A stretch of DNA of 44,838 nucleotides from a virus. The stretch lies in IMG/VR virus record IMGVR_UViG_3300045970_001348, positions 1-44,838 of that record; one strand, given 5' to 3'. A model generated the notes under the pieces. It made no database searches. It saw only the letters and a program-made list of their open reading frames with translations, and had not been told where the DNA came from. The position numbers and the translations under genes are program-made. Each line of letters begins with the position of its first letter. The stretch's first letter is position 1. Shown here one piece after another: positions 17,199-40,964 of this stretch.

Positions 17199-18762
17199 CA
17201 GGAGGGGCAAGGAGCGACTGCTCCTGCTCCTGCGCGAGAAGGCCCGCCGTAGGCCCATCTGGACGGCCCTGGCGGGCCCCCAGGAGATGGCACGTACCAG
17301 CAAGGCCGACATCGTCGGCTATGGCGGCGCAGCCGGGGGCGGCAAGACAGACCTGATCGTCGGCCTGGCCACAACCGAGCACACCAGGTCGCTGGTGGTG
17401 CGCCGGGAGAAGGCCCAGACAGAGGGCGTCATCCAGCGGATGACCGAGCTCTTCAAGGGCACCGACGGGTTCAATTCTCAGAAGTCGATCTGGCGCCTGC
17501 CCACCGAGGCCGCCAGGCTCTGCGAATTCGCGGGCCTGGACAACCTGGGCGATGAGAACAGGTGGCAGGGACGCCCGCACGACCTGAAGGCATTCGACGA
17601 GGTCACCGAACAGCGCGAGGCCCAGGTGCGATTCGTCATGGGCTGGACCCGCTCCAACAACCCTCGGCAGCGCACGCGCGTGCTGATGACCTTCAACCCG
17701 CCCACCACCAAGGAGGGCGAGTGGGTGCTCGACTTCTTCGGCCCCTGGCTGCGCAAGACGCACCCCAGGCCGGCGCTGCCGGGCGAGCTGCGGTGGTTCA
17801 CCACCATCAAGGGGCGTGACGAAGAGGTGCCAGATGGGCGCCCATTCGTCCTGGTGGAGGGCGAACGCGTCTACGAATTCGACCCCGCGGCCTTCAAGCC
17901 CGAGGACGTCATCCAGCCCAAGAGCCGCACCTTCATCCCCGCCAGGCTCACCGACAACCCCTACTACATGGCCACCAACTACATGTCGCAGTTGCAGTCG
18001 CTGCCCGAGCCCCTGCGCTCGCAGATGCTCTATGGCGACTTCACCGCCGGCATCACCGAAGACCCCATGCAGGTCATCCCAACGGCCTGGGTGGAGGCTG
18101 CGATGGCGCGCTGGAAGCCTCTGGCACCTCGAGGCGAGATGCTCACGATGGGCGTGGACGTGGCGCGAGGAGGCAAGGACAAGACTGTGATCGCCACGCG
18201 CCACGCTGGGGATGGCCTGGCCCGCCAGTGGGTGGCGCCTCTGGTCAAGTACCCAGGCACAGACACCCCCTCCGGGCCGATCGTGGCTGGCTACGTGTTG
18301 GCCGAACGGCGCGACCGTGCACCCATCAACCTGGACGTGATCGGCGTTGGCGCAAGCCCATACGACTGCCTGGTGCAGACCGGGCAGCAGGTCCAGGGGG
18401 TGAACGTGGCCGAGAAGGCCAACGCCACCGATCGGTCGGGCCTGCTGAACTTCCTCAACCTGCGCAGCCAGCTCTGGTGGCAGATGCGCGAGGCCCTCGA
18501 CCCGGCCAACGACCTGGGCTGGGCGCTGCCACCGGATCCCGAGCTGAAGGCCGAGCTAACCACCCCCAAGTGGTCGGTATCGGGCCGCGTCATCAAGGTG
18601 CAGAGCAGGGACGAGATCTGGGAGACCCTGAAGCGCTCGGTGGACAGCGCCACCGCGGTCATCCTGGCCTCGATCGACACACCCAAGTGGCACGTCGTCA
18701 AGGCGAGTACGCATACCCGGGCAGCCAAGCGGGAACATGACCCGTATGAAGGGATCAATTGA
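17161..18762 (+). CDS. terL: Terminase large subunit
   Basis: 533 aa, GTG start overlapping the small subunit gene. ATPase: Walker A GGAAGGGKTD (55-64), adenine-binding region before it, Walker B-like KAFDEVTEQ and coupling motif MTFNPP. Nuclease: RNase H-like first Asp in MGVDVARGGKDKT, a second acidic strand LDVIGVGASPYD and a later Asp. It pumps DNA into the prohead and cuts it. The C-terminal coding part holds one copy of the AGTACGCATA element (18706-18715). Confidence 0.95.
   Translation: MLRKPVISTPALDRRGKERLLLLLREKARRRPIWTALAGPQEMARTSKADIVGYGGAAGGGKTDLIVGLATTEHTRSLVVRREKAQTEGVIQRMTELFKGTDGFNSQKSIWRLPTEAARLCEFAGLDNLGDENRWQGRPHDLKAFDEVTEQREAQVRFVMGWTRSNNPRQRTRVLMTFNPPTTKEGEWVLDFFGPWLRKTHPRPALPGELRWFTTIKGRDEEVPDGRPFVLVEGERVYEFDPAAFKPEDVIQPKSRTFIPARLTDNPYYMATNYMSQLQSLPEPLRSQMLYGDFTAGITEDPMQVIPTAWVEAAMARWKPLAPRGEMLTMGVDVARGGKDKTVIATRHAGDGLARQWVAPLVKYPGTDTPSGPIVAGYVLAERRDRAPINLDVIGVGASPYDCLVQTGQQVQGVNVAEKANATDRSGLLNFLNLRSQLWWQMREALDPANDLGWALPPDPELKAELTTPKWSVSGRVIKVQSRDEIWETLKRSVDSATAVILASIDTPKWHVVKASTHTRAAKREHDPYEGIN
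18706..18715 (+). promoter_or_regulatory. AGTACGCATA element, copy 1
   Basis: One of four exact copies in the late region. It lies in the 3' end of the terminase gene, 21 bp before the ATG of the next gene. Only a 4-bp GC stem follows. Confidence 0.5.
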
Positions 18763-19228
18763 CCACGCCCGCGAACTGAACCTGGCCGCGCTGCCCCTCG
18801 TGCTGACGCACGCGGACTTGCGCCTTCTCGCGGATGAGGCGCCCCGGGCCATGCCCGACGAGCCCCTGGTGGACGTGGGCACCAAGCACCACCTGGCCGC
18901 CGGCCTCTACGGGCGCAGCGTCGTGATCTCTGCAGGAACCATGTGCATGGGCGCCGATCACGCCGTCGAGGGATTCGCGCTGATCGTGGGCGACATCTCG
19001 GTGTGGTTCGCAGGCCAAGCCCGGCAGCGCTTCACCGGCGCGCACTTCCTGACCTCGAAGCCCGGGCCGCGCATGGTCCTGGCGCACGCCGACACGACCT
19101 GGATCACGGTTCACCCCAACACCACCGGCGGCACCGACATTGCCGCCATCGAGGACAGCATCGTGAACGGCGCCCAACGCTTGATGTCGCGCCAACCACT
19201 GGCCTTGACGCTGGGAGACCTGCAATGA
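18737..19228 (+). CDS. Phage protein with cupin-like pattern (163 aa), unknown
   Basis: Beta-rich. A Gly and hydrophobic run (HHLAAGLYGRSVVISAGTMC), then GDISVWFAG and TTWITVHPNTTGG, which look like the turns of a small jelly roll; a helical end follows (AAIEDSIVNGAQRLMSRQ). Similar genes sit between terminase and portal in BPP-1-like phages (recollection). Starts within the terminase gene (26-bp overlap). It might be a capsid or assembly factor; not established. Confidence 0.7.
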   Translation: MTRMKGSIDHARELNLAALPLVLTHADLRLLADEAPRAMPDEPLVDVGTKHHLAAGLYGRSVVISAGTMCMGADHAVEGFALIVGDISVWFAGQARQRFTGAHFLTSKPGPRMVLAHADTTWITVHPNTTGGTDIAAIEDSIVNGAQRLMSRQPLALTLGDLQ

Positions 19229-19515
19229 GCATGGCTATGTGGTCAATCGCTGCCGTCAGCTTGTACACCGGCGTGACGGGCAACGACAACGCGCGCCGCG
19301 CCCAGGCCCAGGCCAAGGTCAATGCGCTGGAAACAGCGCGCCAGGCCGACGAGGCCACCAACAAGGCCAACGCCAAGGCCCCCGACAGCGCAGCCGCGCT
19401 GGCTGCCGCCATCCTGGCCGGCAAGCAAGGCAACGCCAGCACCATGCTGACTGGCCCGAAGGGGGTTGCGCAAAGCGACATGACCCTGGGCCGGATCTCA
19501 ATGCTGGGGGGCTGA
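19225..19515 (+). CDS. Small phage protein with conserved C-terminal motif (96 aa)
   Basis: A hydrophobic start (MSMAMWSIAAVSLYTGVTG) could be a membrane or packing helix, followed by an Ala/Lys/Gln-rich helix and a closing motif STMLTGPKGVA then TLGRISMLGG, known from proteins just upstream of connector-type portals in podoviruses (family knowledge). GGAG precedes the ATG, which overlaps the previous stop. Function unknown. Confidence 0.75.
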   Translation: MSMAMWSIAAVSLYTGVTGNDNARRAQAQAKVNALETARQADEATNKANAKAPDSAAALAAAILAGKQGNASTMLTGPKGVAQSDMTLGRISMLGG

Positions 19516-21225
19516 GTGCCCGCGATCACCCACCAGCGCCGGGAAGAGCTGCAGCGGCGGGTCGCATCGCTGCGGTCTGAGCGCTCGACCTGGCTGCCCC
19601 AGTACATGGAGCTATCGAAGTTCATCATGCCGCGCAACGGGCGGTTCATGATCGCCGACCATAACCGGGGCACCCGCCGGCACAACAACATCCTGGACAA
19701 CACCGGCACGCGCGCCCTGCGCACGCTGTCGGCCGGGATGATGTCCGGCATGACGAGCCCGGCCAGGCCCTGGTTCAGGCTTGAGACCTCGGACCCCGAG
19801 CTCAACAAGAGCGCTGCCGTCAAGGTCTGGCTGTCCGACGTGACGCGCCTGCTGCTGCGCATCTTCAGCAAGAGCAACACCTACCGGGCGCTGCACTCGA
19901 CCTACGAAGAACTGGGCGTTTTCGGCACGTCGGCAAAGGTCATCGCAGACGACTTCAAGCACGTCATCCATCACACCTCGCTGACCGCTGGCGAGTACAT
20001 GATCGCGACCGACTACCTGGGCAACGTGGACACGCTTGCCAGGGAATTCGAGATGACCGTGGGGCAGATGGTGCGCGAGTACGGCATCACCGAAGTCAGC
20101 GCCACGGTGAAGGCCCTGTACGACCGCAATGCGCTGGATGCGTGGATCCCGGTCACTCACGTCATCCAGCCCCGCACCGAGCGCGACCGCGCGAGCCCAC
20201 TGGCCAAGGACATGGCCTGGGAGTCGGTCTGCTTCGAGCAGGGCCGATCCGAGTACAAGGTGCTGCGCGACTCTGGCTACAAGGAATTCCCGGCCGCCGT
20301 CTCGCGCTGGGCTGTCTCAGGCGGCGACATCTACGGCGGCAGCCCGGGCCAAGAGTCGCTGGGCGACATCAAGCAGTTGCAGCAGCAGCAACTCCGCAAG
20401 GGCCAGGCCATCGACTACCAGACGAAGCCCCCGCTGCAGGCGCCTTCGAGCATGAAGAACCAGGAGTCGGACATGCTGCCAGGCGGCGTGACCTACTACG
20501 ACGGCACCACGCCGGGCGCTGGCATCCGCACTGCCTTCGACGTGACGCTGAACTTGCAGCACCTCCTGCTTGACATCCAGGACGTGCGCGAGCGCGTCAA
20601 GTCTTCCTTCTACGCTGATCTCTGGCTCATGCTGCAGCAGGTCGACGCTGGCCGGATGACCGCCACCGAGGTGGCCGAGCGCAAAGAAGAGAAGCTGCTG
20701 ATGCTGGGCCCGACCACCGAGCGCTTGCACTTTGAAGAACTGCAACCCCTGGTCGAGGGAACCTTCGCGCGGGCTCTGCGTGCTGGCATCGTGCCCCCTG
20801 CACCCGAAGAGATGCAGGGCCAAGACCTCAACGTCAACTTCATCAGCACGCTGGCCCAGGCGCAGCGCGCGATCGCGACCAACTCCATCGACCGCTTCGT
20901 CGGCAACATCGGGCAGATCGCAACCATCAAGCCCGGCGTGCTCGACAAGCTCGACGAGGACGAGTGGGCCGACGTCTACGCCGACGCGTTGGGCATCGAC
21001 CCCCGCCTGATCGTGCCAGACAGCAAGGTGGCAATGATCCGCGCCAACCGGGCCCAGGTGCAGCAGGCCCAGCAGCAGGCCGCGCAAGCCAACGTCGAGG
21101 CCGACACCGCGCAGAAGATGGCCCAGGCCCAGGGCGGGGCCATCGCGCAGGGCGCCGCCGGCTCGCTTGCCCGCGGAGCAGGCCCCATTACTGATGCCAC
21201 CCGCGCATTCAGCGGATACGTCTGA
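19516..21225 (+). CDS. Portal protein (head-to-tail connector)
   Basis: 569 aa, GTG start one base-frame after the previous stop. The N-terminal part is typical: LRSERSTWLPQYMELSKFIM, NTGTRALRTLSAGMMSGMTSPARPWFRL, YEELGVFGTSAKVI, matching the T7-type Head-tail connector family. The Gln-rich stretch (KQLQQQQLRKG) and the C-terminal Gln/Ala-rich helix are characteristic of the tunnel and crown. It forms the dodecameric ring for packaging. Confidence 0.95.
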   Translation: MPAITHQRREELQRRVASLRSERSTWLPQYMELSKFIMPRNGRFMIADHNRGTRRHNNILDNTGTRALRTLSAGMMSGMTSPARPWFRLETSDPELNKSAAVKVWLSDVTRLLLRIFSKSNTYRALHSTYEELGVFGTSAKVIADDFKHVIHHTSLTAGEYMIATDYLGNVDTLAREFEMTVGQMVREYGITEVSATVKALYDRNALDAWIPVTHVIQPRTERDRASPLAKDMAWESVCFEQGRSEYKVLRDSGYKEFPAAVSRWAVSGGDIYGGSPGQESLGDIKQLQQQQLRKGQAIDYQTKPPLQAPSSMKNQESDMLPGGVTYYDGTTPGAGIRTAFDVTLNLQHLLLDIQDVRERVKSSFYADLWLMLQQVDAGRMTATEVAERKEEKLLMLGPTTERLHFEELQPLVEGTFARALRAGIVPPAPEEMQGQDLNVNFISTLAQAQRAIATNSIDRFVGNIGQIATIKPGVLDKLDEDEWADVYADALGIDPRLIVPDSKVAMIRANRAQVQQAQQQAAQANVEADTAQKMAQAQGGAIAQGAAGSLARGAGPITDATRAFSGYV

Positions 21226-21233
21226 GGAACCCC

Positions 21234-21581
21234 ATGAGCACCGTTTCCTACTTCAACATCGCGACCGGCAACAGCCGCAGCCTTGTGATCGCCTGGTCAG
21301 CAATGGCCAACGGTGACGATGGGCAGCCGATGCCCCACTCGGCCTACACCGACAAGAGCGTGCAGGTCAGCGGCACCTTCGGCGTGGGCGGGTCGTTGCG
21401 CCTGGAGGGCAGCAACAACGGCACCGATTGGGCCCCGCTGTCCGACCCACAGGGCGGCTCGCTGGACATCGTCTCGGCCAAGATCAAGCAGGTCGTCGAG
21501 GCCACGCGATTCATCCGCCCGCGAGTCACCGGCGGTGACGGCACAACGTCGCTTGCAGTTCACCTCTACGTCAAGGAATAA
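21234..21581 (+). CDS. Beta-rich virion-type protein (115 aa)
   Basis: Starts MSTVSYFNIATGNSRSLVIA; contains GTFGVGGSLRLEGSNNGTDW and RFIRPRVTGGDGTTSLAVHL, the pattern of an immunoglobulin or BIG-type small domain seen in decoration and tail proteins. GAGGAA precedes the ATG. It opens a run of structural-looking genes between portal and capsid. No firm family. Confidence 0.65.
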   Translation: MSTVSYFNIATGNSRSLVIAWSAMANGDDGQPMPHSAYTDKSVQVSGTFGVGGSLRLEGSNNGTDWAPLSDPQGGSLDIVSAKIKQVVEATRFIRPRVTGGDGTTSLAVHLYVKE

Positions 21582-21584
21582 GCC

Positions 21585-22061
21585 ATGAGCAACCGATTCA
21601 TCGAGGCCGCCGCCGAGGCCCGCCGCATGCTGGTGGGCTTTGCCGCCATCGCCACAGTCTCCGAGGTGCTCGCCGACGCGGGCAGCGTGATCCAGGCGCA
21701 GACCGAGGCCGAGCAAGCGCTGGCCAAGCTGCAGGCCGACATCACCACCGCCAAGGACGAGCTCGCCGTGGCCAGCCAGGCCAAGGTCGTGGTGGACGCT
21801 TCTGCTGCTGAGACCCGCGCCCTGGCCCTCACCGCCTACGACCACGCCAGCAGCGAGGCCGCCCGCATCCTGGCCCAAGCCAACGCCGACGCGCAGTCCA
21901 TCGTGGCCGATGCCAACGCCAGGGCCGGCGCTGCTCTGGACAACGCCGGCGTCGAGGTGGCCGAGCTGACCCAGCAGCGCAACAACCTGGCCGATGAGGT
22001 CGGGCGCCTGACTGCGGCGCTGGACAAGCTCAAGGCCGCCGCCGCGGCACTGGCCGGCTGA
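21585..22061 (+). CDS. Coiled-coil protein (158 aa)
   Basis: Almost wholly helical with long Ala-, Glu- and Gln-rich heptads (QTEAEQALAKLQADITTAKD, then later NADAQSIVADANARAG and QQRNNLADEVGRLTAALDKL). The N-terminus (MSNRFIEAAAEARRMLVGFA) is slightly hydrophobic. Four bases follow the previous stop. It might be an assembly or fibre-linking protein; the true scaffold is more likely the gene at 26131. Confidence 0.65.
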   Translation: MSNRFIEAAAEARRMLVGFAAIATVSEVLADAGSVIQAQTEAEQALAKLQADITTAKDELAVASQAKVVVDASAAETRALALTAYDHASSEAARILAQANADAQSIVADANARAGAALDNAGVEVAELTQQRNNLADEVGRLTAALDKLKAAAAALAG

Positions 22062-22062
22062 G

Positions 22063-22452
22063 ATGACCACGGGCTACGACGTCGCTACGCGCAACGCGCA
22101 GCTCGATGCGCTCACCACGCGAGTGGGCGCTGCGGGCAAGCTGCAGATCTACGACGGCACCAGACCCGCCACCGGCGGCGCGGCCACCGTGAAGCTGGCC
22201 GAGTTCACGCTGGGCTCGCCGTTCTCGGGGGCTGCCGCCGCTGCGGTGCTGTCGCCCACGCTGCCGGCCAACGTAAGCGGCCTGGCGGCGGGCACCGCGA
22301 CGTGGTTCCGAGTCACCGACTCAGCGGGCAACCAGCGAATCGACGGCAGCGCCGGCACGTCTGGCACCGACCTGATCCTGAACACCGCCACGGTGAGCAT
22401 CGGCGTCACGGTGTCGGTGACTGCCTGGACGATCACACGGGGTAATCCGTAA
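22063..22452 (+). CDS. Virion-type beta protein (129 aa)
   Basis: Segments KLQIYDGTRPATGGAATVKL and ATWFRVTDSAGNQRIDGSAG with GTDLILNTATVSIGVTVSVT recall a common phage structural family in which an 'IYDGT(R)PA' motif opens the domain. Probably a tail or capsid surface protein. Starts after the previous stop with no gap and its own stop overlaps the next ATG. Confidence 0.65.
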   Translation: MTTGYDVATRNAQLDALTTRVGAAGKLQIYDGTRPATGGAATVKLAEFTLGSPFSGAAAAAVLSPTLPANVSGLAAGTATWFRVTDSAGNQRIDGSAGTSGTDLILNTATVSIGVTVSVTAWTITRGNP

Positions 22453-23123
22453 TGGCAGCCAAAACCGACCAGGTCGTCATCCTGCCGCTGGACACCGGCA
22501 ACACCGGGAAGAAGATCCGCACCAAAGAATCGGTGGTCGGAGCCAACACGGTGGAGGAATACTTCTTCATCCCCAGCACAGAGCGCGATGTCACGGGCCA
22601 GTACAAGTTCGTGATCCCCGCGCAGGCCATTCCGACAGCGGTGCACACCGGAACAACCACCGGGTTCATGTTCCTCATCAACCCGCTCACCAGCACGGTC
22701 AAGCTGGCTGTTGACCGGATCACGCTCAAGCACAACTTCTCCACCACGCTTGCCGTTGACCTGATCGCGCCGCTCATCAACATCAACCGCATTAGCTTCA
22801 CCGGAACGCTGTCGGCAACGGTCACTGCGCCTGCCAAACGCAAGACCGCTGACGCAGCCGCCCAGGGCCTGATCGCCACAGCATCAACTGGGCTGACCGT
22901 GACCAACGTCGCAGCGGTCTGGGGCTGCGTCGGAAACACGATGGACCTCCTGACAGGCGGCGGCGGCCACTGGTCTGCGCAGACCGACGAGTGGAACCCA
23001 CGAGACGAAGACGATGAGCTTGTCCTGACCGCGGGGGAGGGCATCGTGGTCTGGTCAACCTTTGCCGTGACGACAGCCAACCGCAAGCTGCTCATCAACG
23101 GCGCCTGGTTCGAGTACAACTGA
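22452..23123 (+). CDS. Virion-type protein (223 aa), unknown
   Basis: No family recognised. A beta-rich, Thr-rich protein with a long run of short strands (TTTGFMFLINPLTSTVKLAV; FSTTLAVDLIAPLININRIS) and a C-terminal part with GGGGHWSAQTDEWNPRDED, ending NGAWFEYN. The sequence is like fibre or adhesin heads that display a surface. The ATG overlaps the previous TAA. Confidence 0.6.
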   Translation: MAAKTDQVVILPLDTGNTGKKIRTKESVVGANTVEEYFFIPSTERDVTGQYKFVIPAQAIPTAVHTGTTTGFMFLINPLTSTVKLAVDRITLKHNFSTTLAVDLIAPLININRISFTGTLSATVTAPAKRKTADAAAQGLIATASTGLTVTNVAAVWGCVGNTMDLLTGGGGHWSAQTDEWNPRDEDDELVLTAGEGIVVWSTFAVTTANRKLLINGAWFEYN

Positions 23124-23124
23124 C

Positions 23125-23949
23125 ATGGCCTTCACGCTCGTCGATGGCGTTGTCCTGCTGGATGGGTTTGCAACCCCAGCCACACCCGGGACGTTCGCCC
23201 TCGTCGATGGTGTCGAGCACCAGGCTTTCGCAGCCCCCGCCGCAGCCAGCTCGCAGCCAGTGGACGCAGCGCTGCTTCTCACGGCATGGACGGCCGGCGC
23301 ACCGGTGGCGGTATCGGAGGCCCTGGCCTGGACCGAAGCGGATGACCTGTCGGCCATTGCTGCTGCGCTGCGCGCATCTGGCGCGCTGGCCTGGACCGAG
23401 GCTGACGACGTGTCGGCGGTGGTCGCTGCGTTGCGGGCATCCGGCTCTCTGGCGTGGGCCGAGGCCGACGACATCTCCGCGCTGGCGGGCACCATCGCCT
23501 CGCTCACTGTGTCCGGTGCTCTGGCCTGGACCGAGGCCAGCGATACCTCGAGCATCGTGGCGGCCCTGCGCGCGTCCAGCTCGCTGGCGTGGATCGAGGC
23601 CGACGACGTGTCCGCGCTGGCCGGCACGCTGACGGCATCCCTCACCGGCAGCCTGGCCTGGACCGAGGCCAACGACGTGTCGGCGATCGCCGCGGCGTCC
23701 CTGGTGTCCGCGGCCCTGGCCTGGCTGGAAGCAGACGACAGCGGGACCATGACCGCATCGGCGGCCGTTGCTGCAGCGCTGGGGTGGACCGAGGCCAACG
23801 ACGCCGCTGCGCTGACGGGTGGCGTCTTCACGCCGGCCTCGGCCTCGCTGGCGTGGCTCGAGGCCGACGACGTGTCGCAGATCAGCACCTACGTCGGGGA
23901 CCCGCCAGTAGGCGGCTTCGACCCGCGCCGCCGGCGCCGAATGAACTAG
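23125..23949 (+). CDS. Tandem-repeat protein with nine LAWTEADD-type repeats
   Basis: 274 aa. After a short lead with 'FALVDGVEHQAF'-like phrases, nine imperfect copies of (S/A)LAWxEAxDxSxx follow, spaced 20-28 residues apart from about 65 to 258. Inter-repeat parts are short A/S/L strands such as AALRASG. The tail is PPVGGFDPRRRRRMN. The layout suggests a beta-solenoid or stacked-strand fibre. It sits among tail or decoration genes upstream of the C1q-like and GH5-like proteins. Confidence 0.7.
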   Translation: MAFTLVDGVVLLDGFATPATPGTFALVDGVEHQAFAAPAAASSQPVDAALLLTAWTAGAPVAVSEALAWTEADDLSAIAAALRASGALAWTEADDVSAVVAALRASGSLAWAEADDISALAGTIASLTVSGALAWTEASDTSSIVAALRASSSLAWIEADDVSALAGTLTASLTGSLAWTEANDVSAIAAASLVSAALAWLEADDSGTMTASAAVAAALGWTEANDAAALTGGVFTPASASLAWLEADDVSQISTYVGDPPVGGFDPRRRRRMN

Positions 23950-23958
23950 GGGTACACC

Positions 23959-25835: not shown

Positions 25836-26134
25836 CCCCCCGCCAACGCCGCGAGCAGAACGCATCCGACTGGAAGGCGCAGATGGCCACGCCCGATGGG
25901 CGCCGCGTCATCTGGGCCATCCTGTCGCGCGCCGGCCTCTTCCGGTCGAACTACGCCGTCGTGCCCGATCCCGGCGTCCACCTGGCCATCGGCGAGGGCG
26001 AACGCAACGTTGGCCTGTTCGTGCTGGACGAACTCAACACCCACGCGCCGGGCGCCTTCGCACGCATGCTGACCGAGGTCCAGGCCAAAAGTACGCATAG
26101 CACCGATTCCGCCGCCGACACTGCCGAGCAATGA
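25832..26134 (+). CDS. Small phage protein upstream of scaffold and capsid (100 aa)
   Basis: The central GRRVIWAILSRAGLFRSNYA and GEGERNVGLFVLDEL match a small family encoded next to podovirus scaffold and capsid genes (family knowledge); the role is unknown. GTG start overlaps the GH5-like stop (GTGA). The tail (KSTHSTDSAADTAEQ) contains the coding for the second AGTACGCATA copy. Confidence 0.75.
   Translation: MTPRQRREQNASDWKAQMATPDGRRVIWAILSRAGLFRSNYAVVPDPGVHLAIGEGERNVGLFVLDELNTHAPGAFARMLTEVQAKSTHSTDSAADTAEQ
26090..26099 (+). promoter_or_regulatory. AGTACGCATA element, copy 2
   Basis: Exact copy in the 3' end of the 100-aa gene, 31 bp before the ATG of the scaffold gene. No hairpin is obvious after it. 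Confidence 0.5.
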
Positions 26135-26646
26135 ACACCCAAGTCGCCCCCGCAGTAGCAGCGCCCGCAGCACCGGCCGCCCCGGCCGCGCCCGTTGCGA
26201 ATGCTGCTCCCGCCGCCCCGGCCCCTGCTGGCGCTGCGGCCCCCGCGGAGCCTGCCGCCGCCGCGCCCGCAGCCCCTGCTGCAGCAGCGCCGGCCGCTCC
26301 CGCAGAGCCCGCCAAGCTGACCGTCGAAGAGTACGGCACGCAGCAGGCCGCCGAAATCGCGCGGGTCCACGCCGAGTGGAAAGCCGATATGGCCGCCGAC
26401 CCGGAGCTGGGCGGCGAGAAGCTCGACGAGAACCTGGCCAAGGCACGCGCAGTGCTCGAGGCCGCTGGCAGCCCGAAGCTGGCTGCCCTGCTCGACAAGA
26501 CCGGCCTGGGCAACCAAGTCGAATTCGTGCGCCTGTTCCTGAAGCTCGGCCCGGCGGTCCTCCCCGACCGCTTTGTGCCAGGCACCAAGGCCGCGAGCGC
26601 GCCCAAGTCGCGGGCGCAGGAAATGTTCCCCGGAATGAACCCCTGA
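26131..26646 (+). CDS. Head scaffolding protein-like, Ala/Pro-rich N-terminus
   Basis: 171 aa. Residues 6-60 are almost all A and P. The C-terminal half (WKADMAADPELGGEKLDENL, then GSPKLAALLDKTGLGNQVEF) matches the conserved core of podovirus scaffolds, with motifs ELGG and GLGN, and ends in a short basic part before MFPGMNP. It lies 14 bp ahead of the capsid gene, the usual scaffold position. It has weak ribosome sequence (CCGAGCA), so it may depend on coupling with the gene upstream. Confidence 0.8.
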   Translation: MNTQVAPAVAAPAAPAAPAAPVANAAPAAPAPAGAAAPAEPAAAAPAAPAAAAPAAPAEPAKLTVEEYGTQQAAEIARVHAEWKADMAADPELGGEKLDENLAKARAVLEAAGSPKLAALLDKTGLGNQVEFVRLFLKLGPAVLPDRFVPGTKAASAPKSRAQEMFPGMNP

Positions 26647-29082: not shown

Positions 29083-31382
29083 TGGCACGCTCTTACTCGC
29101 GATCGTTCTCTGGCGGCGAGGTCACCGACGAGTTCTGGGGTCAGATCGGTGACGCCAAGTTCCAGACGGGCCTGGCCCTGTGCAAGAACTTCCGAGTGCT
29201 GCCCCACGGGCCCATCCAGAACCGGGCTGGATTCGAGTTCGTGCGGGAGGTCAAAGACAGCACCAAGGCCGTGCGCCTGATCCCGTTTGAATACTCGACC
29301 GACCAGACGATGGTGCTCGAGGTGGGCGAGGGCTACGTTCGCTTTCACACCCAAGGCGCCACGCTGCTGTCGGGGGCCTCGCCCTACGAGGTGGCAACCA
29401 CCTACCTGGCCAGCGAACTGTTCGCGATCAACTACGTGCAGTCGGCTGACGTGCTGACCTTTGTGCACCCCGCCCACTTGCCGGCCGAGCTGCGCCGCCT
29501 TGGCGCACTGAGCTGGATCCGGTCCGATATCTCGTTCGTCACCACCCTGACGCCCCCCGCCACGGTCAGCGCAACGGCTACCGTTGGCGGCACACCGGGC
29601 ACGCCCACGCTTCACAAGTACGCAGTGACCTCGGTGGCCAGCAACAACATCGACGAATCGCTGATCTCCGCAACCTGTCGTGGGGTGAGCACCACGATCA
29701 GCGCCATCACCCAGGCCAACCCGGGCCTGATCACTTGCAGCGCTGCCCACGGGCTGTCTGTCGGCGACCCAGTGGAGCTCTTCTCCGTCCTCGGCATGAC
29801 TGCGATCAACGCCGCAACCTACACGGTCAACACCGCGCCCAGCACCACCACGCTGACGCTGGCCCTGAACGGCACGCCGGTGGACACCACCGCCTTCGTG
29901 GCCTACGTCAGCGGGGGCTTCGTAGTCAGGTTGGGCGTCATGAACAACATCTTCGACTCCGGCGCGAAGAATGTGATCACCTGGACGGCAGCCACCGGCG
30001 CTCTGCGCTACCACGTCTACAAGCAAAGCAACGGTCTGTGGGGCCACGTCGGCCAGGCTTCCGGTCTGAGCTTCACCGACGACAACATCACGCCCGACAT
30101 CAGCAAGACCCCGCCCGAATCCAACGACCCATTCTCGGCGGCCAATGAGTACCCTGGCGCGGTCACCTATTTCGAGCAGCGGCGCGTCTTCGGCGGCTCG
30201 ACAAACAAGCCACAGACACTCTGGTTCACACGCTCGGGCACCGAGTCGAACATGAGCTATTCGATCCCGACCCGGGACAGCGACAGCATCACGTTCCGTG
30301 TCGTGGCCCGCCAGGCCAACACCGTGCGCCACCTGGTGCCGATCGCTAGTCTGGTGGCCCTGACAAGCTCTGCCGAGTGGCGCATCAGCAGCGGAAGCGG
30401 GGATGCCCTCACGCCAGCAAGCGTGGATGTCAAGCCCCAGTCCGCAGTCGGCGCCGGCCAGGTCCAGCCCGTGCTGGTCAACTCCAACGTGATCTTCGCG
30501 GCTGCCCGCGGGGGGCATATGCGCGAGCTGGCCTACAACTGGCAGTACCAAGGCTTCATCACCGGCGACTTGAGCCTGCGCGCGCCGCACCTTTTCGACG
30601 GGCTCGAGATCGTCGACATGGCCTTCAGCAAGTCGCCATACCCGACAGTCTGGGCGGTGAGCAGCAACGGCAAGTTGCTGGGCCTGACCTATGTCCCAGA
30701 GCAGCAGATAGGCGCCTGGCACCAGCACGACACCGACGGGCTATTCGAGTCCATCTGCTGCGTGGCCGAGGGCGTGGAGGACGTGCTCTACGCCATCGTG
30801 CGCAGGACCATTAACGGGGTCAGCAAGCGATACGTCGAGCGCATGCGCCCCCGGGCCTTTGCCACCCAGGCCGACTGCTTCTTCGTCGACTGTGGGGGCA
30901 CCTATTCGGGCACGGCAACGGCCACGATCACCGGCGCCACATGGCTCGAGGGAAAGACCATCAGCGTGCTCGCCGACGGCGCCGTGCACCGGCAGGTCGT
31001 GGTCACTGGCGGCGCCTTCACGCTGGACTATGCGGCATCCAAAATCCAGTTTGGGCTGCCCATCATCGCCGACGGCATGGGGCTTCCACTGACCATCGAC
31101 GCGCCTGGCTATGGGCAGGGCCAGTTCAAGGCAATCAACCGGGTGTTGCTGCGCGTGAAGGACACCAGCGGGCTGCGGGTGGGCCCGGCCTTCGACAAGC
31201 TCTCTGAGATGAAGACCCGCACCGACGAAGCCTACGGCATGCCGCCGAGCCTGCAGAGCAGGGTCGTCGAGGTGGTCAACAAGTCTGCGTGGACCGACGA
31301 CGGTCAGGTGTGCTTTCGCCAGCAGGACCCCCTGCCGGCCACGATCAGCTCCATCAAGGTCGAATACGTCCTGGGCGGCTAG
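29082..31382 (+). CDS. Tail tubular protein B-like (T7 gp12-type nozzle)
   Basis: 766 aa. MARSYSRSFSGGEVTDEFWG and the stretch CKNFRVLPHGPIQNRAGFEF, VRLIPFEYSTDQTMVLEVGE, QSADVLTFVHPAHLPAELRR are typical of phage nozzle proteins. An inserted Thr/Ser-rich domain (about 160-330) carries variable surface loops, and the last third has VWAVSSNGKLLGLTYVPEQQ and ERMRPRAFATQADCFFVDCG. It seals the tail end. Its TAG stop lies in the third AGTACGCATA copy. Confidence 0.92.
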   Translation: MARSYSRSFSGGEVTDEFWGQIGDAKFQTGLALCKNFRVLPHGPIQNRAGFEFVREVKDSTKAVRLIPFEYSTDQTMVLEVGEGYVRFHTQGATLLSGASPYEVATTYLASELFAINYVQSADVLTFVHPAHLPAELRRLGALSWIRSDISFVTTLTPPATVSATATVGGTPGTPTLHKYAVTSVASNNIDESLISATCRGVSTTISAITQANPGLITCSAAHGLSVGDPVELFSVLGMTAINAATYTVNTAPSTTTLTLALNGTPVDTTAFVAYVSGGFVVRLGVMNNIFDSGAKNVITWTAATGALRYHVYKQSNGLWGHVGQASGLSFTDDNITPDISKTPPESNDPFSAANEYPGAVTYFEQRRVFGGSTNKPQTLWFTRSGTESNMSYSIPTRDSDSITFRVVARQANTVRHLVPIASLVALTSSAEWRISSGSGDALTPASVDVKPQSAVGAGQVQPVLVNSNVIFAAARGGHMRELAYNWQYQGFITGDLSLRAPHLFDGLEIVDMAFSKSPYPTVWAVSSNGKLLGLTYVPEQQIGAWHQHDTDGLFESICCVAEGVEDVLYAIVRRTINGVSKRYVERMRPRAFATQADCFFVDCGGTYSGTATATITGATWLEGKTISVLADGAVHRQVVVTGGAFTLDYAASKIQFGLPIIADGMGLPLTIDAPGYGQGQFKAINRVLLRVKDTSGLRVGPAFDKLSEMKTRTDEAYGMPPSLQSRVVEVVNKSAWTDDGQVCFRQQDPLPATISSIKVEYVLGG

Positions 31383-31390
31383 TACGCATA
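31381..31390 (+). promoter_or_regulatory. AGTACGCATA element, copy 3
   Basis: Begins in the TAG of the nozzle gene, 30 bp before the next ATG. The second half (CGCATA) is part of a hairpin that follows directly. Confidence 0.55.
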
Positions 31391-31418
31391 AGGGGGTCCC
31401 CGGGGCCTACCTTATGCG
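31385..31418 (+). repeat. Hairpin after element copy 3
   Basis: CGCATAAGG (31385-31393) pairs perfectly with CCTTATGCG (31410-31418); the 16-nt loop contains CCCCGGGG. The stem sits between element and start codon, 2 bp ahead of the ATG, and hides the only AGG-rich sequence available as a ribosome site. Confidence 0.65.
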
Positions 31419-31933: not shown

Positions 31934-31934
31934 C

Positions 31935-33743: not shown

Positions 33744-36700
33744 CCCCTACGACGAACCGGCCGGCGCGGCGCCAACGCCCAGCGCGCCCGGCAACCCCTA
33801 CGACGAGGAAAGCCCCACCTCGCGCGTTCGCGCCAGCGTCGCGGTAGCCAGCGGCAGCAACCCCGACCAGGTTGCGGCGCAACGCAGGCTGGCCGCCTAT
33901 CTGAACGTCGCCCCGGCCGTTGCTGAGTACATGCCCGACGAGGTCAAGCGCCTCGCTGCGACCAAGCAGATCGAGGCCGACACGGTGGCGGCGCCAGTCC
34001 TGCAGCGCCGGTACGGTGACCCCGACTTCGCCAAGCTGGCGGTGGACGACAGCGGGCCCCTCTCCAAGCTCGAGAAGGCAATCGGCGGGGCCGTTGCCTA
34101 CATGATGGGCGCAGACCAGCGCGGGGGCCTGCCAGGCGCTCTGCACCGCGGGATTTACTACAACTCGGTGGAGTCCACCGCAGGGGCTTTCCGGGGCATC
34201 GCCGAGAACCTGGCCGGCGCAGGACTGGGCCCGGCGCAGTTTGTCGCCGACGGGTTCGGCAAGATCGGGCGTGATGCCGCAGCAGCACGCGATGCCCGCT
34301 ACCCCCCGGTGGCGGATCCTGGCACTGTGCGGTCTGGCGTCGACAGCGGCGTCGAATCGGCAGCCCAGGCCCTGAAGTACGCACCCCTGGCCTTCCTTGG
34401 CCCGCCTGGCATTGCCGCTGCCCTGGCTGGCATGGTGGCAGAGGCGGGCGGCGCCACCTACCAAAAGGATCGCGAGGCCGGGGTGGACCCGCTCCGCTCG
34501 ACCGTGCACGCTGCTGCTGACACGGTGGCCGAGTACACCTTCGAGAAATACGCAGGCGCGGCAAAGTTCCTCGAGAAGCTGGCGGCGGGGACACCGGCAG
34601 CCAAGCTCATGATGTTCGAGATCACGAGCGAGATGCCGTCGGAGATTGCCACCACTCTGTGGCAGAACTTCAACGAGTGGGCAGTCATCCACCCTGATAA
34701 GTCGGTCAAGGACTTCGTGGCCGAACAGCCCGAGGCAATCGCCCAGACAGCAATCGCAACCCTCGTGGGCGGCAGCATCCAGGTCGGCGCCGGTAAGGCC
34801 ACGATGAAGGTCGCCGAGCAGGTCATGGGCCACGAGGCCGAGATCACACGTGCCGGCCGCGCCGCCGAGATGCTGCAGGAGCAACTCAAGCTGGCGCTGG
34901 ACAGCAAGCTGCGCGAGCGGGACCCCGAGCAGTTCCGCGCGGTGCTGCAGCAGATGGCCGCCGGCGCCGAGGGCGCGCCGCAGAGCGTCTTTGTCGACGC
35001 GGAGAAGCTCAACCAACTGCCCCCCGAGGTGCTCGGCACGCTGCCCGAGGACGTGCTTGCGCAAATGGCCGATGCCTTGACCAGCAACGGCACGGTGGAG
35101 ATCCCCATCGGCGCTGCGCTGGCAGTCGCGCCGGGCACGCCGCTGGAGCAGACCCTGGTCGAGCACGGCCGGGTCGGGGACCCCGCGGCAACCACTCAGT
35201 TTGAAGCCAAGGAGGCCGGCAAGAAGGCGGGCGAGTACCTCGAGCAGCAGTCGGCCAGCGTCATCCAGCAGGCGCAGGACGCGCAGGCCGCCCAGGCATC
35301 CCACGACGCCGTGCGCCAGGGCATTCTGGATCAGCTCACCGCCACCGGCCGGTTCCGCCAGGCGGTCAACGAGGGATACGCCACCTGGACGGCAGCCTTC
35401 TACACCACGATGGCCGGGCGCCTTGGCATGACGTCCGAGGAGATGGCGGCCAAGTACCCGCTACGCATCGTGGGGGAGGCGGGGCAGGGTCAGACGCTAA
35501 ACGCAGGCGGTGTGGGCAGCCTTTCCGACGTTACCCACCAGTGGACCGCATCGGGCATTGACAGCACCGTCAGCGAGAAGGACAAGGTCATTACCTTGTC
35601 GAAGATCGCGCTGGAACCCGAGGCGCGCAAGCAGGGGGTGGGCACCGCCGCCATGCAGGCGTTGACCGAGTACGCCGACCGCACCGGCCAGCGCATCGTG
35701 CTGTCGCCGGCAACCGACTTTGGCGCCACGAGCAAGGGCCGTCTGGTGGCCTTCTACAAGCGCTTTGGATTCGTCGAGAACAAGGGCCGGAGCAAAGACT
35801 TCACGGTGTCGGAGTCCATGCTGCGAGAGCCGCAGGCCCGCACTGATGAAACGACCGGTCTGCCGCTGAACAGCGACGGCACAGTCACCGTCTACCACCA
35901 CACCTCGGCAGCCAACGCCGCGGAGATCCAGCGCACGGGCCTTCTGAAGTCGGCCGGTGAGCCGGACCTGTACTTCACCACGACCGCAGAGACCGATACC
36001 GGCTATGGCGACACGGCTGTGCCGTTCCGCGTGAAGCCCGAGCGCCTGCTGCTTGATGATGAGTTTCCGGGCGGCCGGCAAGACTTCAAGGTCGAGACCA
36101 AGAACGCGGCCAAAGCGCGGCGCGTGCGGTTCTTGCCGGACGGCCAAGGGGTTCTGGAGCAGTCTGGTACAACCCAACCTATGCACCCCAGCCGCGCAGC
36201 GTGGGGTCAGGACTTCCCGGACGCGCGCATTCTTGTGGGCGAGTCGGCGGTCAAGCGGCATCCCGACTACCACGCTGCCAAAACCGGGGATGCTGCTGCG
36301 GCAGCGCGCCTGGTGCAAGACTTGGTCGCGCCCGAAGCGATCCAATCCATTCGGCAAGAACTTGCAGGACGCCGTCCTCTGGTCGCAAGCATCCACGCGC
36401 AGGAAGAGCAGGGAGTCAACGCCATACCAGAGGCCCTGGCCGACTTGATCGCCGCGCGGCTTGGACTGGAAACTGACGACTCTCTGGTACAGACCAACAT
36501 CGTCAACCACACCGGCGCCGATGGATTCAGCCGTCTGGCTCGTCAAGCGCTGTTCTCCGGGGACGTGAAGAGCGGATCCGAATACCTGATCGTCGATGAC
36601 TTCATCGGCCAGGGCGGAACGATGGCGAACTTCCGGGGTCACATCCAGCGCTACAACGGCAAGGTGATCGGCGCGGTCGCGTTGACCGGAAAGCCACACT

Positions 36701-39700
36701 CTGCGAAGATCGGCCTGTCGGATCAACAACTTGGCGAGCTGCGAGACAAACATGGAGAACTCGAAGACTGGTGGCGCAAGCGCTTCGGCTTCGGCTTCGA
36801 TGCGCTCACCCAATCCGAAGCCCGCTACCTCGCACGCACCGCGGATGCTGACACCGTCAGAGATCGTGTCGCTGCAGCAGAACAAGCGGGAAACGGCGGC
36901 AACGGTCAAGGCTTTGCTGGCGGCAGCTTAGAGCAGAGCGCCCCGGCGGCTTCGCCGGGCCCCCTCGCCCAGCTCGCCCGGGGCACCTTCACCCCGGCCA
37001 ACCTCGAGCTGGCACTCAGCCCGACCGCCGACCTCTCCACCTTCTTCCACGAGACCGGCCACTTCTTCCTCGAGGTGATGGCCGACCTGGCCAGCCAGCC
37101 CGGTGCGCCTGTCGAAATTGCGGCCGACATGAAGGTGCTGCTGGACTGGTTCGGCGTGCCCGACCTGGCCACCTGGCACGGCATGACCCTGGATCAGCAG
37201 CGCCCGCACCACGAGCGCTTCGCCGAGGGCATCGAGCAGTACATCATCGAGGGCAAGGCGCCCAGCGTCGAACTGCTGCCCCTCTTCCGGCGCTGGCGCA
37301 CCTGGATGCTGTCGGTCTACAAGAGCCTGCAGCAGTTCGTCAACGGCACGTCCCCAGGCCCTGAACTCAGCCCCGAGGTGCGCAAGGTCTTCGACCGCAT
37401 GCTGGCCAGCGAGGAGCAGATCAAGCAGACCGAGGAGGTCCTGGGCCTGGTGCCCGAGGACGACGCCACCCAGTCGGCAATCGAGCGACTGACCTCGCGC
37501 AGCATCCGCGATCTGAAGTGGAGCGTGGCCGCCGTCGGTCGCGAGATCAAAAAGCTGCAGGCCCAGGCCGCCGGGCTGCGCAAGGAGGTCCAGGCCGAGG
37601 TCGAGGCCGAGGTCGACCAGATGCCGGAGTTCCGCGCCAAGGCGGCGCTGGATGCACTGAAGGTCAACCCCGACCTGTCGGCCGCCACCGCAGAGTGGAA
37701 GGCCAAGCGTACCACCGCACTGGCCGACGCGCGGGACGCACTGAAGGCCGCTCTCTACGCCACCAACCCCGGGGCTACCGGCCTGAAGAAGGGCCAGTTG
37801 TTCGCGAAGAACAAGCGCAGCATCGAGAACCAGGCCGAGGCGGCGGTGCTGCAGTGGGAACAAGCTAACCCCAGGCCAACGGCCGGGCAGAACGCGACCG
37901 ATCAGGACATGGCCACCGTGGCCGACTCGTTCGGCTTCCCAGACACCGAGACCATGCTCGCCGCGATCGACGCCACTGGCAAGCGCGCCGACCTAGTCGA
38001 GGCGATGACAGACCAGCGCATGCTCGAGGAGCACGGCGACCTGGTCGATGAGCAAGCCATGCGCGAGGCCGCTGCCGAGGCGGTGCACAACCGGGCCCGG
38101 GCCAAAAGCCTGGCCACCGAACTGAAAGCGCAGGCTGACGCGCTGGGGGCCAGCAAGGACACCGGCAAGGTCAACGCCGCCGGCAGCAAGATCACGGTCA
38201 ACGTGCTCGCCGAGGCTGCCAAGCAGTTCGCACAGAACATCGTCGCGCGCACCGTGCTGAAAGACCTGAAGGCCAAGGCATGGCAGCACCAGGCCGCCGA
38301 ACGGCGCTCGGCCAGCGCCTGGCAGAAGGCCACCGCCGCCGGCAAGACCGAGGAGGCCATCAAGGCCAAGCAGGACCAGATGCTGAACCACGCTGCCGCG
38401 CGTGCGGCGCTGGATGCGATCAGCGAGGCCAAGGACATCGTGGCCTTCTTCCGGCGCGTCGTGAAAGACGGCGACGAGAAGACCGTCGAGAAGGGCCGTG
38501 ACCCAGACGTGGTCAACGCCGCGCGCGCCGTGCTGGCCATGTACGGGGTGGGTGCAAAGGGCGGCAAGTCGGCCATCGACTACATGCAGGTGCTGGAGAC
38601 CAACGACCCGGTGACCTTCGCGGCGGTGCAGGACTCTCTGCGCGCCAGCATCGGCAACGCCCAGCCGCTGCAGGCCCTCACGATGGAGCAGCTTCAGTCG
38701 CTCCACGAAGAGATCCAGTCCATGTGGCGCCTGGCCAGGCGAACTCGGCAGATGGAGGTGGCCGGCAAGCTGATGGACATCGACGATGCGGCCCAAGAGC
38801 TCTCCGACCGGATGAGCGCCATCGGCGTGCCGCTCGAGGCGCCCGGCACGAACAGCGCGCTGACGCCAGCGGAGACACGTTCCCGGTGGTTGCAGTTCGC
38901 CGGCAGCATCCTGCGTCGAGTCGAGCAGTGGAGCGAGGGCATGGACGGCCGCTACGGGGGCCCATTCCGGCGCCTGGTCTTCGGGCCCGTCAAGGCGGCA
39001 GCCGACGCCTACCGGGCCGACAAGGTGGTCTACCTGAAGCGCTACGCCGCGCTGGTCGACAACGTCGCACCGGCACTGAGCAAGGGTCTGATCGCCGCGC
39101 CCGAACTGGGCTACACCTTCGGCAAGGGGCACAACGGCATCGGCCACGCCGAGCTGCTGCACGCCATCCTGCACACCGGCAACGAGAGCAACAAACGCAA
39201 GCTGCTGCTGGGCCGCAAGTGGGCCACCGAGAACCTCGACGGCACGCTGGACACCACGAAGTGGGACGCTTTCGTCAAGCGCATGCAGGACACTGGCATG
39301 CTGCGCAAGGAGCACTACGACTTCGCCCAGGGTGTGTGGGATCTGCTCGAGCAGACGAAGCCCCTGGCCCAGAAGGCCCACCGCGACGTCTTCGGACGCT
39401 ACTTCGCCGAGGTGACCGCCGACAGTTTCGACACCCCGTTCGGTGCCTACCGGGGCGGCTACGTGCCGGCCCAGGCAGACCCGCGCATCGTGCCCGACGC
39501 AGACATGCGGGCGCTGGCCAACCTCGAGAACGAGAGCATGAGCTTCTCCTTCCCGACCACAAGCAAGGGCTTCACCAAAGGACGCGTCGAGTACAACCGG
39601 CCGCTGATGCTGGACCTGCGCACCATCGGCCAGCACATCGACAAGGTGCTGCTCTTCGCGCACATGGAGTCGGCGGTGCGCGACGTCAACAAGCTGCTCT

Positions 39701-40956
39701 CGCGCAAGCCCGTGAGCCAGCCTCTGGGCAAGATCGACCCGACCATCTATTCCGGCATGCTGACGCCCTGGCTGAACCGCAGCGCGCGCCAGGTGGTCGA
39801 GACTCCGATCGTCGGCGACGGTGGCGTTAGCCGGGTGCTTTCGGCGATGCGTGGGCGCGCGGGCGCCGCGCTGATGTTCGCCAACGTCAGCAACTCCATC
39901 CAGCAGATCACGGGATTCTCTGGCGCCTTCGCCAAGTTCAAGGCCGACGACATGAAGTCGGACCTGATGCGCTCGACCGCTCGCTTCATCCGCAGCCCCA
40001 AGAAGATGGCCGAGGCGGTGTCCGCGGCAAGCCCCTACATGAAGGGCAGGATGGACAACGAGGTGGCCGCCATGCAGGACGCGATGAACGCGATCCTCCT
40101 GGATCCGAGCCTCTACGAGCGCGCCCAGGCATGGACCAACAGGCACGCCTACTTCCTCCAGTCCGCGCTCGACAACACGATGGGCCCGATCATATGGAGC
40201 GCCGCCTACAACGCGGCGGTCAAGAAGGGCCTGGCCGGCGCCGACGCCGTGGGCTACGCCGACGGCGTGATTCGCCAGACGCAGGGCAGCACGATGCCCG
40301 AGGACGTGAGCCGAATCGAAACAGGGCCAGCCTACGCTCGGGTCTTCACCCAGTTCATTGGCTACTTCAACATGATGGCCAACACCAACGGCACCGCGCT
40401 GAAGCAGATCAGCAGCGAGATCGGCTTGAAGAAGGGCGCTGGCAAGGCCCTGATGGTCGTGACGATGGGCATGCTGGTCCCCCTCTGGGTCGCCGAGGCG
40501 ATCGCCCAGGCTATGCGCGGGGGCCCCGACGACCCGGACGGCGACGGTTGGCTCGACGACTGGCTCGCCGCGGTCTTCGGGATGGGCACGATCAAGGGCA
40601 TGTTCGCGATGGTGCCCTTCATCGGCCAGCTCGCCAACGCCGGCCTTAACCGCTTCAACACCAACCCGGCCGACGACCGGGTGAGTCTCAGCCCAGCGGT
40701 GAGCTTGCTTGAGTCGGGCGCCGGGGTGCCCTACGACGTCTACAAGTACCTCATCGGGGAGGGCAAGGCCCGCACCACGGTGCGCGACGTTGCCAGCCTT
40801 GTGAGCATCGCCACGGGACTGCCTGCGACAGCGCTGGCCAGGCCGCTTGGCTACCTGGCCGGGGTCCAGCAGGGTGACATCTCGCCCACGGGACCGGCCG
40901 ATGCGGCCCGCGGTCTGATCACCGGCAACCCGAGCCCAGAAAGCAAAACAAAGTAG
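33724..40956 (+). CDS. Giant polyvalent ejection protein (2410 aa)
   Basis: In the place of T7 gp16, but twice as long and multi-domain. Two GNPYDE copies open it. Domains in order: helical region with hydrophobic stretch (about 215-245); GNAT-like fold (about 615-690) with RKQGVGTAAM and GRLVAFYKRFGFV; ART-like domain (about 718-812) starting VYHHTSAANAAEIQRTG; phosphoribosyltransferase-like domain (about 820-995) with YLIVDDFIGQGGT; metallopeptidase-like STFFHETGHFF (HExxH near 1109) followed by a downstream Glu helix (FAEGIEQYI); long coiled regions (1200-1800); a C-terminal LPD38-like region ending with two hydrophobic segments (about 2238-2320). These are parts of phage 'polyvalent proteins' (family knowledge), which enter the cell with the DNA and may disarm host defences. 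Confidence 0.88.
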   Translation: MPQLLGNPYDEPAGAAPTPSAPGNPYDEESPTSRVRASVAVASGSNPDQVAAQRRLAAYLNVAPAVAEYMPDEVKRLAATKQIEADTVAAPVLQRRYGDPDFAKLAVDDSGPLSKLEKAIGGAVAYMMGADQRGGLPGALHRGIYYNSVESTAGAFRGIAENLAGAGLGPAQFVADGFGKIGRDAAAARDARYPPVADPGTVRSGVDSGVESAAQALKYAPLAFLGPPGIAAALAGMVAEAGGATYQKDREAGVDPLRSTVHAAADTVAEYTFEKYAGAAKFLEKLAAGTPAAKLMMFEITSEMPSEIATTLWQNFNEWAVIHPDKSVKDFVAEQPEAIAQTAIATLVGGSIQVGAGKATMKVAEQVMGHEAEITRAGRAAEMLQEQLKLALDSKLRERDPEQFRAVLQQMAAGAEGAPQSVFVDAEKLNQLPPEVLGTLPEDVLAQMADALTSNGTVEIPIGAALAVAPGTPLEQTLVEHGRVGDPAATTQFEAKEAGKKAGEYLEQQSASVIQQAQDAQAAQASHDAVRQGILDQLTATGRFRQAVNEGYATWTAAFYTTMAGRLGMTSEEMAAKYPLRIVGEAGQGQTLNAGGVGSLSDVTHQWTASGIDSTVSEKDKVITLSKIALEPEARKQGVGTAAMQALTEYADRTGQRIVLSPATDFGATSKGRLVAFYKRFGFVENKGRSKDFTVSESMLREPQARTDETTGLPLNSDGTVTVYHHTSAANAAEIQRTGLLKSAGEPDLYFTTTAETDTGYGDTAVPFRVKPERLLLDDEFPGGRQDFKVETKNAAKARRVRFLPDGQGVLEQSGTTQPMHPSRAAWGQDFPDARILVGESAVKRHPDYHAAKTGDAAAAARLVQDLVAPEAIQSIRQELAGRRPLVASIHAQEEQGVNAIPEALADLIAARLGLETDDSLVQTNIVNHTGADGFSRLARQALFSGDVKSGSEYLIVDDFIGQGGTMANFRGHIQRYNGKVIGAVALTGKPHSAKIGLSDQQLGELRDKHGELEDWWRKRFGFGFDALTQSEARYLARTADADTVRDRVAAAEQAGNGGNGQGFAGGSLEQSAPAASPGPLAQLARGTFTPANLELALSPTADLSTFFHETGHFFLEVMADLASQPGAPVEIAADMKVLLDWFGVPDLATWHGMTLDQQRPHHERFAEGIEQYIIEGKAPSVELLPLFRRWRTWMLSVYKSLQQFVNGTSPGPELSPEVRKVFDRMLASEEQIKQTEEVLGLVPEDDATQSAIERLTSRSIRDLKWSVAAVGREIKKLQAQAAGLRKEVQAEVEAEVDQMPEFRAKAALDALKVNPDLSAATAEWKAKRTTALADARDALKAALYATNPGATGLKKGQLFAKNKRSIENQAEAAVLQWEQANPRPTAGQNATDQDMATVADSFGFPDTETMLAAIDATGKRADLVEAMTDQRMLEEHGDLVDEQAMREAAAEAVHNRARAKSLATELKAQADALGASKDTGKVNAAGSKITVNVLAEAAKQFAQNIVARTVLKDLKAKAWQHQAAERRSASAWQKATAAGKTEEAIKAKQDQMLNHAAARAALDAISEAKDIVAFFRRVVKDGDEKTVEKGRDPDVVNAARAVLAMYGVGAKGGKSAIDYMQVLETNDPVTFAAVQDSLRASIGNAQPLQALTMEQLQSLHEEIQSMWRLARRTRQMEVAGKLMDIDDAAQELSDRMSAIGVPLEAPGTNSALTPAETRSRWLQFAGSILRRVEQWSEGMDGRYGGPFRRLVFGPVKAAADAYRADKVVYLKRYAALVDNVAPALSKGLIAAPELGYTFGKGHNGIGHAELLHAILHTGNESNKRKLLLGRKWATENLDGTLDTTKWDAFVKRMQDTGMLRKEHYDFAQGVWDLLEQTKPLAQKAHRDVFGRYFAEVTADSFDTPFGAYRGGYVPAQADPRIVPDADMRALANLENESMSFSFPTTSKGFTKGRVEYNRPLMLDLRTIGQHIDKVLLFAHMESAVRDVNKLLSRKPVSQPLGKIDPTIYSGMLTPWLNRSARQVVETPIVGDGGVSRVLSAMRGRAGAALMFANVSNSIQQITGFSGAFAKFKADDMKSDLMRSTARFIRSPKKMAEAVSAASPYMKGRMDNEVAAMQDAMNAILLDPSLYERAQAWTNRHAYFLQSALDNTMGPIIWSAAYNAAVKKGLAGADAVGYADGVIRQTQGSTMPEDVSRIETGPAYARVFTQFIGYFNMMANTNGTALKQISSEIGLKKGAGKALMVVTMGMLVPLWVAEAIAQAMRGGPDDPDGDGWLDDWLAAVFGMGTIKGMFAMVPFIGQLANAGLNRFNTNPADDRVSLSPAVSLLESGAGVPYDVYKYLIGEGKARTTVRDVASLVSIATGLPATALARPLGYLAGVQQGDISPTGPADAARGLITGNPSPESKTK

Positions 40957-40964
40957 TACGCATA
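40955..40964 (+). promoter_or_regulatory. AGTACGCATA element, copy 4
   Basis: Starts in the TAG of the giant gene; 29 bp before the tail fibre ATG, joined directly to a strong hairpin. Confidence 0.55.

Follow-up and report, generated by a model that had tools for sequence, protein, structure and literature searches.

At the middle promoters of phage T4, MotA takes over recognition of the -35 position while sigma reads the -10 box (PMC6755090), and in phage Mu a single activator (Mor/C) works at several late promoters, with its binding site near -35 (PMC4461284). Here, we describe a ten-base word in a virus genome that, judged from sequence comparison, is very probably the -35-position element of five late promoters (P1 to P5), with a small phage helix-turn-helix (HTH) protein replacing the -35 contact and the host sigma factor acting at -10. 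As in the MotA/AsiA system, an activator box would replace the -35 element, and the word ends 17 bp before the -10 box. Unlike in T4, the genes are late and not middle genes, the word lies at about -39 to -30 whereas the T4 box is centred at -30, and word and putative reader vary together among relatives. The likeness to Mu would consist in a single phage activator that serves several late promoters from near -35, but Mu C makes contact with the beta-prime subunit and has most of its binding site upstream of -35. With Ltr/RinA of Gram-positive temperate phages the locus shares an HTH gene immediately before P1 and the gene for the terminase small subunit (TerS); however, those regulators appear to differ in sequence, and phi13 has four direct repeats ahead of one promoter; in the Gram-negative phages considered here, about five promoters at separate places each have a single word at -35. 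An HTH at -35 is also a feature of sigma-70 region 4 and of ECF-type sigma-like factors (e.g. Xpf of PBSX), but the protein described here is 75-95 aa in all and has no region 2.

The window, i.e. the whole stretch of DNA that we analysed, is the linear virus record IMGVR_UViG_3300045970_001348 (44.8 kb, 66% G+C). It has PHROG matches to an integrase, a repressor, DNA replication genes, TerS, TerL, a T7-like portal, tail tubes, a major head protein, an endolysin, a 2410-aa internal protein and a tail fibre; the integrase and the CI-like repressor constitute a temperate gene content. By comparison of the tail protein, the nearest named phages are Bordetella BPP-1, zth2-2, Caulobacter Jess A and Limnohabitans DC33, and we therefore regard the window as a BPP-1-like (Rauchvirus-like) temperate podovirus. 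The record of DC33 (L113, PQ492659.1) is filed under Inoviridae; its genes are those of a BPP-1-like podovirus, and its word is GGTACCCGTA.

An earlier note on this DNA had reported four exact plus-strand copies of AGTACGCATA, and we found all four at the positions given there (Table 1). Such a number is not expected by chance, since dinucleotide shuffles yielded a mean of 0.00 copies and none reached four. The gaps of 21, 31, 30 and 29 bp to the next gene are correct as counted to the ATGs at 18737, 26131, 31421 and 40994. The note is also right that copies 3 and 4 overlap a TAG, which ends the preceding gene in each case. The start that matters for copy 1 is probably the in-frame ATG at 18746 instead of 18737; it lies 7 bp after the -10 box, as at the other sites. 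The layout in the window is then the word, 17 bp, a -10 box of the form xAnnnT, 6-8 bp and an ATG. Written as the pattern GCATA-N16-18-NANNNT-N5-9-ATG, it occurs at five places in the window against 0.19 expected, namely the four exact sites and a fifth at 16704. There, the degenerate word GTTAGGCATA carries three mismatches, the downstream layout is unchanged, and the gene that follows is that of the terminase small subunit. It is the P1 promoter that the relatives predict: GAAAAT follows after 17 bp, and the TerS ATG after another 6 bp. Matches with two mismatches are at chance level in the window (11 found, 11.4 expected), and the promoter layout ahead of a gene is absent from all of these extra matches. 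Two points count against the promoter assignment: the P1 word of the window is weak, and in the window group the -10 boxes depart from the consensus (GAACAT, GACACT, GACATT). The gene after P4 (31421-31933) encodes a gp14-like internal virion protein.

Table 1. Words, -10 boxes and putative reader of the late promoters in the window
Feature	Position	Strand	Remark
Small HTH protein, 94 aa	16424..16708	+	putative reader of the word; recognition helix 66-73; specificity residues G70 and D71
P1 word, degenerate GTTAGGCATA	16704..16713	+	layout pattern and spacing; overlaps the HTH gene stop codon
P1 -10 box GAAAAT	16731..16736	+	6 bp before the TerS ATG at 16743
P2 word AGTACGCATA	18706..18715	+	within the last TerL codons; border matched in relatives
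P2 -10 box GAACAT	18733..18738	+	17 bp past the word; putative start codon and RNA start at ATG 18746
P3 word AGTACGCATA	26090..26099	+	within the end of a Bbp19-like gene, before the protease gene
P3 -10 box GACACT	26117..26122	+	8 bp before ATG 26131
P4 word AGTACGCATA	31381..31390	+	overlaps the gp12-like stop codon
P4 -10 box TACCTT	31408..31413	+	7 bp before ATG 31421
P5 word AGTACGCATA	40955..40964	+	overlaps the stop codon of the 2410-aa ORF
P5 -10 box GACATT	40982..40987	+	6 bp before ATG 40994 (tail fibre)

Is the word a common element of related phages? The earlier note had reasoned that a lack of the word at homologous borders would speak against a control element. AGTACGCATA is indeed absent from the homologous borders of relatives, but a genome-specific word stands at these same borders instead, so that taken literally this test misleads. 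We found the relatives' words by listing the most over-represented 10-mers of each genome and mapping them to the borders. The word of BPP-1 is GGTGCCCGTG, and those of other relatives include GGTGCGCGTA, GGTACCCGTA and GACGTACATA; BPP-1 has exactly four copies of GGGTGCCCGTG, and these lie on the late strand at the borders of TerS, bbp24, bbp19 and bbp9. The border set in relatives lies after the HTH gene (P1), after TerL (P2), before bbp19 (P3, in most relatives one gene earlier than in the window), after gp12 (P4) and before the tail fibre (P5), and aligned in register the sites read word, 17 bp, TAnnnT-type hexamer, start codon. More than 30 distinct words are found among about 100 phages. 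Our curated table held 80 loci with 215 sites; locus L014, whose word is probably false, was later dropped, which left 187 distinct sites. As a control for shared 10-mers, random stretches gave 35 of 127 loci compared with 96 observed, and owing to this high background we used the -10 spacing and did not rely on shared words alone.

Two sets of repeats were rejected. Single copies of AGTACGCATA in 12 viral loci lie inside gp11 codons, 472-478 bp ahead of gp12 in those compared, and are not promoters. In DC33 and zth2-2, the repeats picked up first turned out to be collagen-like stretches of fibre genes; the real border words are GGTACCCGTA. The close relatives L103, L006 and L009 have words of another shape (GTTCCAATAGG, GACGTACATA), and the HTH gene was not found in the stretch fetched.

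The likely reader of the word is the small HTH protein, whose gene adjoins P1 upstream, encodes 75-95 aa and is kept in nearly every locus that reaches that far; its counterpart in BPP-1 is Bbp27 (bbp27), annotated as 'endonuclease'. We aligned 41 non-redundant HTH proteins, each with the word of its own phage. The top pair of protein column and word position overall was residue 71 (D71 in the window) with word position 6 (z 15.7-17.5): G goes with Asp in 11 of 12 cases, C with Lys in 17 of 18, and A with Arg in 5 of 10 or with Lys in 3. A second pair joins the preceding residue (G70) to word position 4, where A goes with Gln in 8 of 13 cases and G almost never does. Both residues fall inside the predicted recognition helix, residues 66-73 (AlphaFold with 44 sequences, mean pLDDT 81; with a single sequence the model was poor, pLDDT 51).

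Other proteins of the same phages served as controls. For position 6, the best z was 8.6 for the portal, 6.9 for TerL and 7.9 for Bbp19, compared with 17.5 for the HTH protein. For position 4, one portal column reached z 12.3 against 11.3 for the HTH protein, but its mutual information was 0.23 against 0.59. With portal distance as the control variable in a partial Mantel test, none of 5000 permutations matched the two residues; the distance over the whole HTH protein was not clearly better than the portal control (300/5000), so that only the two recognition residues beat the portal. The portal tree requires at least 14 changes at word position 6, and its strongly supported branches offer only 4 independent pairs, of which 3.9 of 4 run in the expected direction.

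The resulting recognition code, Asp-G, Lys-C and Arg-A at position 6 and Gln-A at position 4, predicts held-out cases. Held-out loci were fetched by HTH similarity, together with three further phage records, and HTH sequences used before were removed; the HTH alignment (A4) was too variable for scanning contigs. The words were located without HTH information, at the fixed 17-bp spacing. Where residue 71 was Asp, Lys or Arg, the base at position 6 was predicted in 23 of 28 loci, some of them from related phages and thus not phylogenetically independent of each other (permutation mean 9.5; 0 of 20,000 permutations as good), and Gln went with A at position 4 in all three cases. The exceptions were Lys with G (L328, L330) and Arg with C in the related loci L314, L317 and L325.

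Profile and fold searches place the HTH family only generically. Its 44 members match generic HTH families alone in Pfam, with no match to the MotA family (E up to 0.1) and none to Mor; 12 of the 44 weakly match phrog_836, 'late transcriptional activator' (best E 1.5e-4). Among the profile matches listed for the family, no RinA/ArpU model appeared. The sigma region 4 profile is matched weakly by 15 of 44 members (best E 2.2e-4), and the fold resembles sigma region 4 on -35 DNA (3n97, Z 5.1, rmsd 2.7, 44 residues); since resolvases, transposases and GcrA score similarly, this likeness is non-specific. With 94 aa and a single HTH, the protein of the window does not combine a region 2 with a region 4, as an alternative sigma factor would.

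The second part of the promoter is the -10 box. For words picked only because two borders of one genome share them, xAnnnT was found at offsets 27, 28 and 29 from the word start in 58, 41 and 29 of 174, and at other offsets up to 34 mostly in 2-13 of 174, the enriched zone being offsets 26-29. In the 187 distinct sites, which were selected for a -10 box (the enrichment is also present without selection), the hexamer has T at position 1 in 144, A at position 2 in 182 and T at position 6 in 187. A TAnnnT-like hexamer thus stands at the consensus distance of sigma-70 promoters (17 bp spacing). TTGACA is not found at -35: the last six bases of the word match it at 0-3 of 6 positions in 32 distinct words, and an extended -10 TG is present at 8 of 187 sites. 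The remark in the earlier note that no sigma-70 -35 element precedes the word was right, because the word itself fills the -35 position with the -10 box 17 bp after it; it would span about -39 to -30, the stretch in which TTGACA would otherwise be contacted by sigma region 4.

A protein bound at this position could also repress. The words would then be operators of a phage repressor, and the HTH protein at -35 would block late transcription until induction, comparable to stoperator/operator systems. This would suit a temperate phage with an integrase and a CI-like repressor; a -35 site would also occlude the polymerase, and the HTH covariation suits any DNA-binding role. With so poor a match to TTGACA and so rare an extended -10, however, these sites would, unaided, be poor promoters and would need no blocking. 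Nor are the sites scattered over early and late regions, as in L5-type stoperators: in the window, exact sites are confined to the borders of late genes, and the early region has none. We consider repression unlikely and infer that the HTH protein activates.

Where would the transcripts of these promoters begin? With the hexamer taken as -12 to -7, the RNA is expected to start 6-7 bases downstream. Of 65 P3 sites, 47 have exactly 6 bp between hexamer and start codon and 62 have 5-9 bp; the distance is 5-9 bp in 12 of 16 P1 sites and 27 of 54 P2 sites. Because the start codon usually follows the -10 box by 6-7 bp, P1-P3 transcripts would be leaderless in most relatives. At P4 and P5 of relatives, the start codon is mostly 20-30 bases from the hexamer, and a Shine-Dalgarno-like stretch is present at P5 in 12 of 12 sites and at P4 in 22 of 30. 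P1 and the four exact sites of the window are all of the short-distance kind, and the gene starts are therefore better placed at 18746 and 31421. Late mRNA from most P1-P3 sites and from all window sites may accordingly lack a leader, and so, it appears, does the mRNA of the main head operon.

These short distances bear on a further reading, in which the HTH protein is a lambda Q-like antiterminator or pause factor that binds promoter DNA and travels with the polymerase. Q proteins bind late promoter DNA and act beside terminase genes, and one weak profile match of the HTH family is to the anti-termination Q-like family phrog_79 (E 0.06). Q systems, however, have a single late promoter with a promoter-proximal pause and a terminator, whereas here four to five promoters are dispersed, and those of the window sit directly on start codons and leave no leader for pausing or termination, which makes this reading very improbable.

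Alternatively, the word might act in the RNA, as a processing site or a translational control hairpin in a polycistronic late mRNA. The earlier note had listed RNA processing among its readings and claimed strong hairpins at copies 3 and 4. Folding bears this out for copy 4, at P5 (z -4.6), but not for copy 3 (z -1.4), and at copies 1 and 2 no hairpin was found. An RNA element would be in keeping with the P5 fold, and also with the word and the bases before the ATG being slightly more complementary within than between sites (23/5000 permutations). A comparable hairpin is, however, absent from sites 1 and 2 of the window and from L009 and L103, and an RNA element leaves the DNA-level -10 spacing and the recognition-helix covariation unexplained. 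Hairpins were rejected as part of the element since they are not conserved, and the word would lie upstream of the RNA start; we regard an RNA element as scarcely credible. In its own right, the P5 spacer with its -10 box (window 40955-41000) forms a strong inverted repeat, GCGGCCAgTGTC/GACAtTGGCCGC, and the start codon takes part in the outer pairs of the stem; the stem is not common to most relatives and would form only in read-through RNA, not in the RNA of P5 itself. The complementarity between word and pre-start bases was seen at P2 and P3 of relatives, with GC bias as an alternative cause; read-through mRNA might therefore hide the start codon.

Of the readings offered for a late-gene control element, the phage-specific promoter and the protein-binding site would apply together. 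We propose that P1-P5 serve the packaging, head, tail and fibre operons, and that host RNA polymerase with its main sigma factor would read the -10 box. The phage HTH protein, whose gene immediately precedes P1, would bind the word at about -39 to -30, substitute for the TTGACA contact and recruit the polymerase; transcription would start at the start codon or within a base or two of it at most P1-P3 sites and all window sites. As protein and word coevolve, each phage would have a private promoter specificity, and the promoter-activator pairs of different phages may be mutually orthogonal. More speculatively, the HTH protein could be a stand-alone substitute for sigma region 4, docking on the polymerase in place of the host region 4 and reading the phage -35; we hold this possible rather than probable. 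Host sigma would then recognise the -10 and a phage subunit of 75-95 aa the -35, and, if true, there would be dozens of natural separate polymerase specificities, set largely by two adjacent residues.

In BPP-1, which serves as model phage in work on diversity-generating retroelements, and in a large group of relatives from the environment, the proposed element would act as the switch of the late genes. In the open papers searched, a scope outside which the 2004 BPP-1 genome paper falls, this switch was not found to have been described before. The set of words and readers also amounts to a natural experiment in protein-DNA recognition, with a short code that predicts held-out cases.

Two further observations concern the borders themselves. 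The gene between TerL and the portal varies among relatives: in the window (18746-19228) it is tail-fibre-adhesin-like, in BPP-1 a GNAT acetyltransferase. The interval is possibly a swap slot in which the gene changes while promoter P2 stays put. At P1, the word lies within the last codons of the HTH gene (KTVRV = gtgcgcgta) in L107, L106, L088, L016, L081 and L069, so that the putative activator gene would hold its own target; in the window, this copy is decayed.
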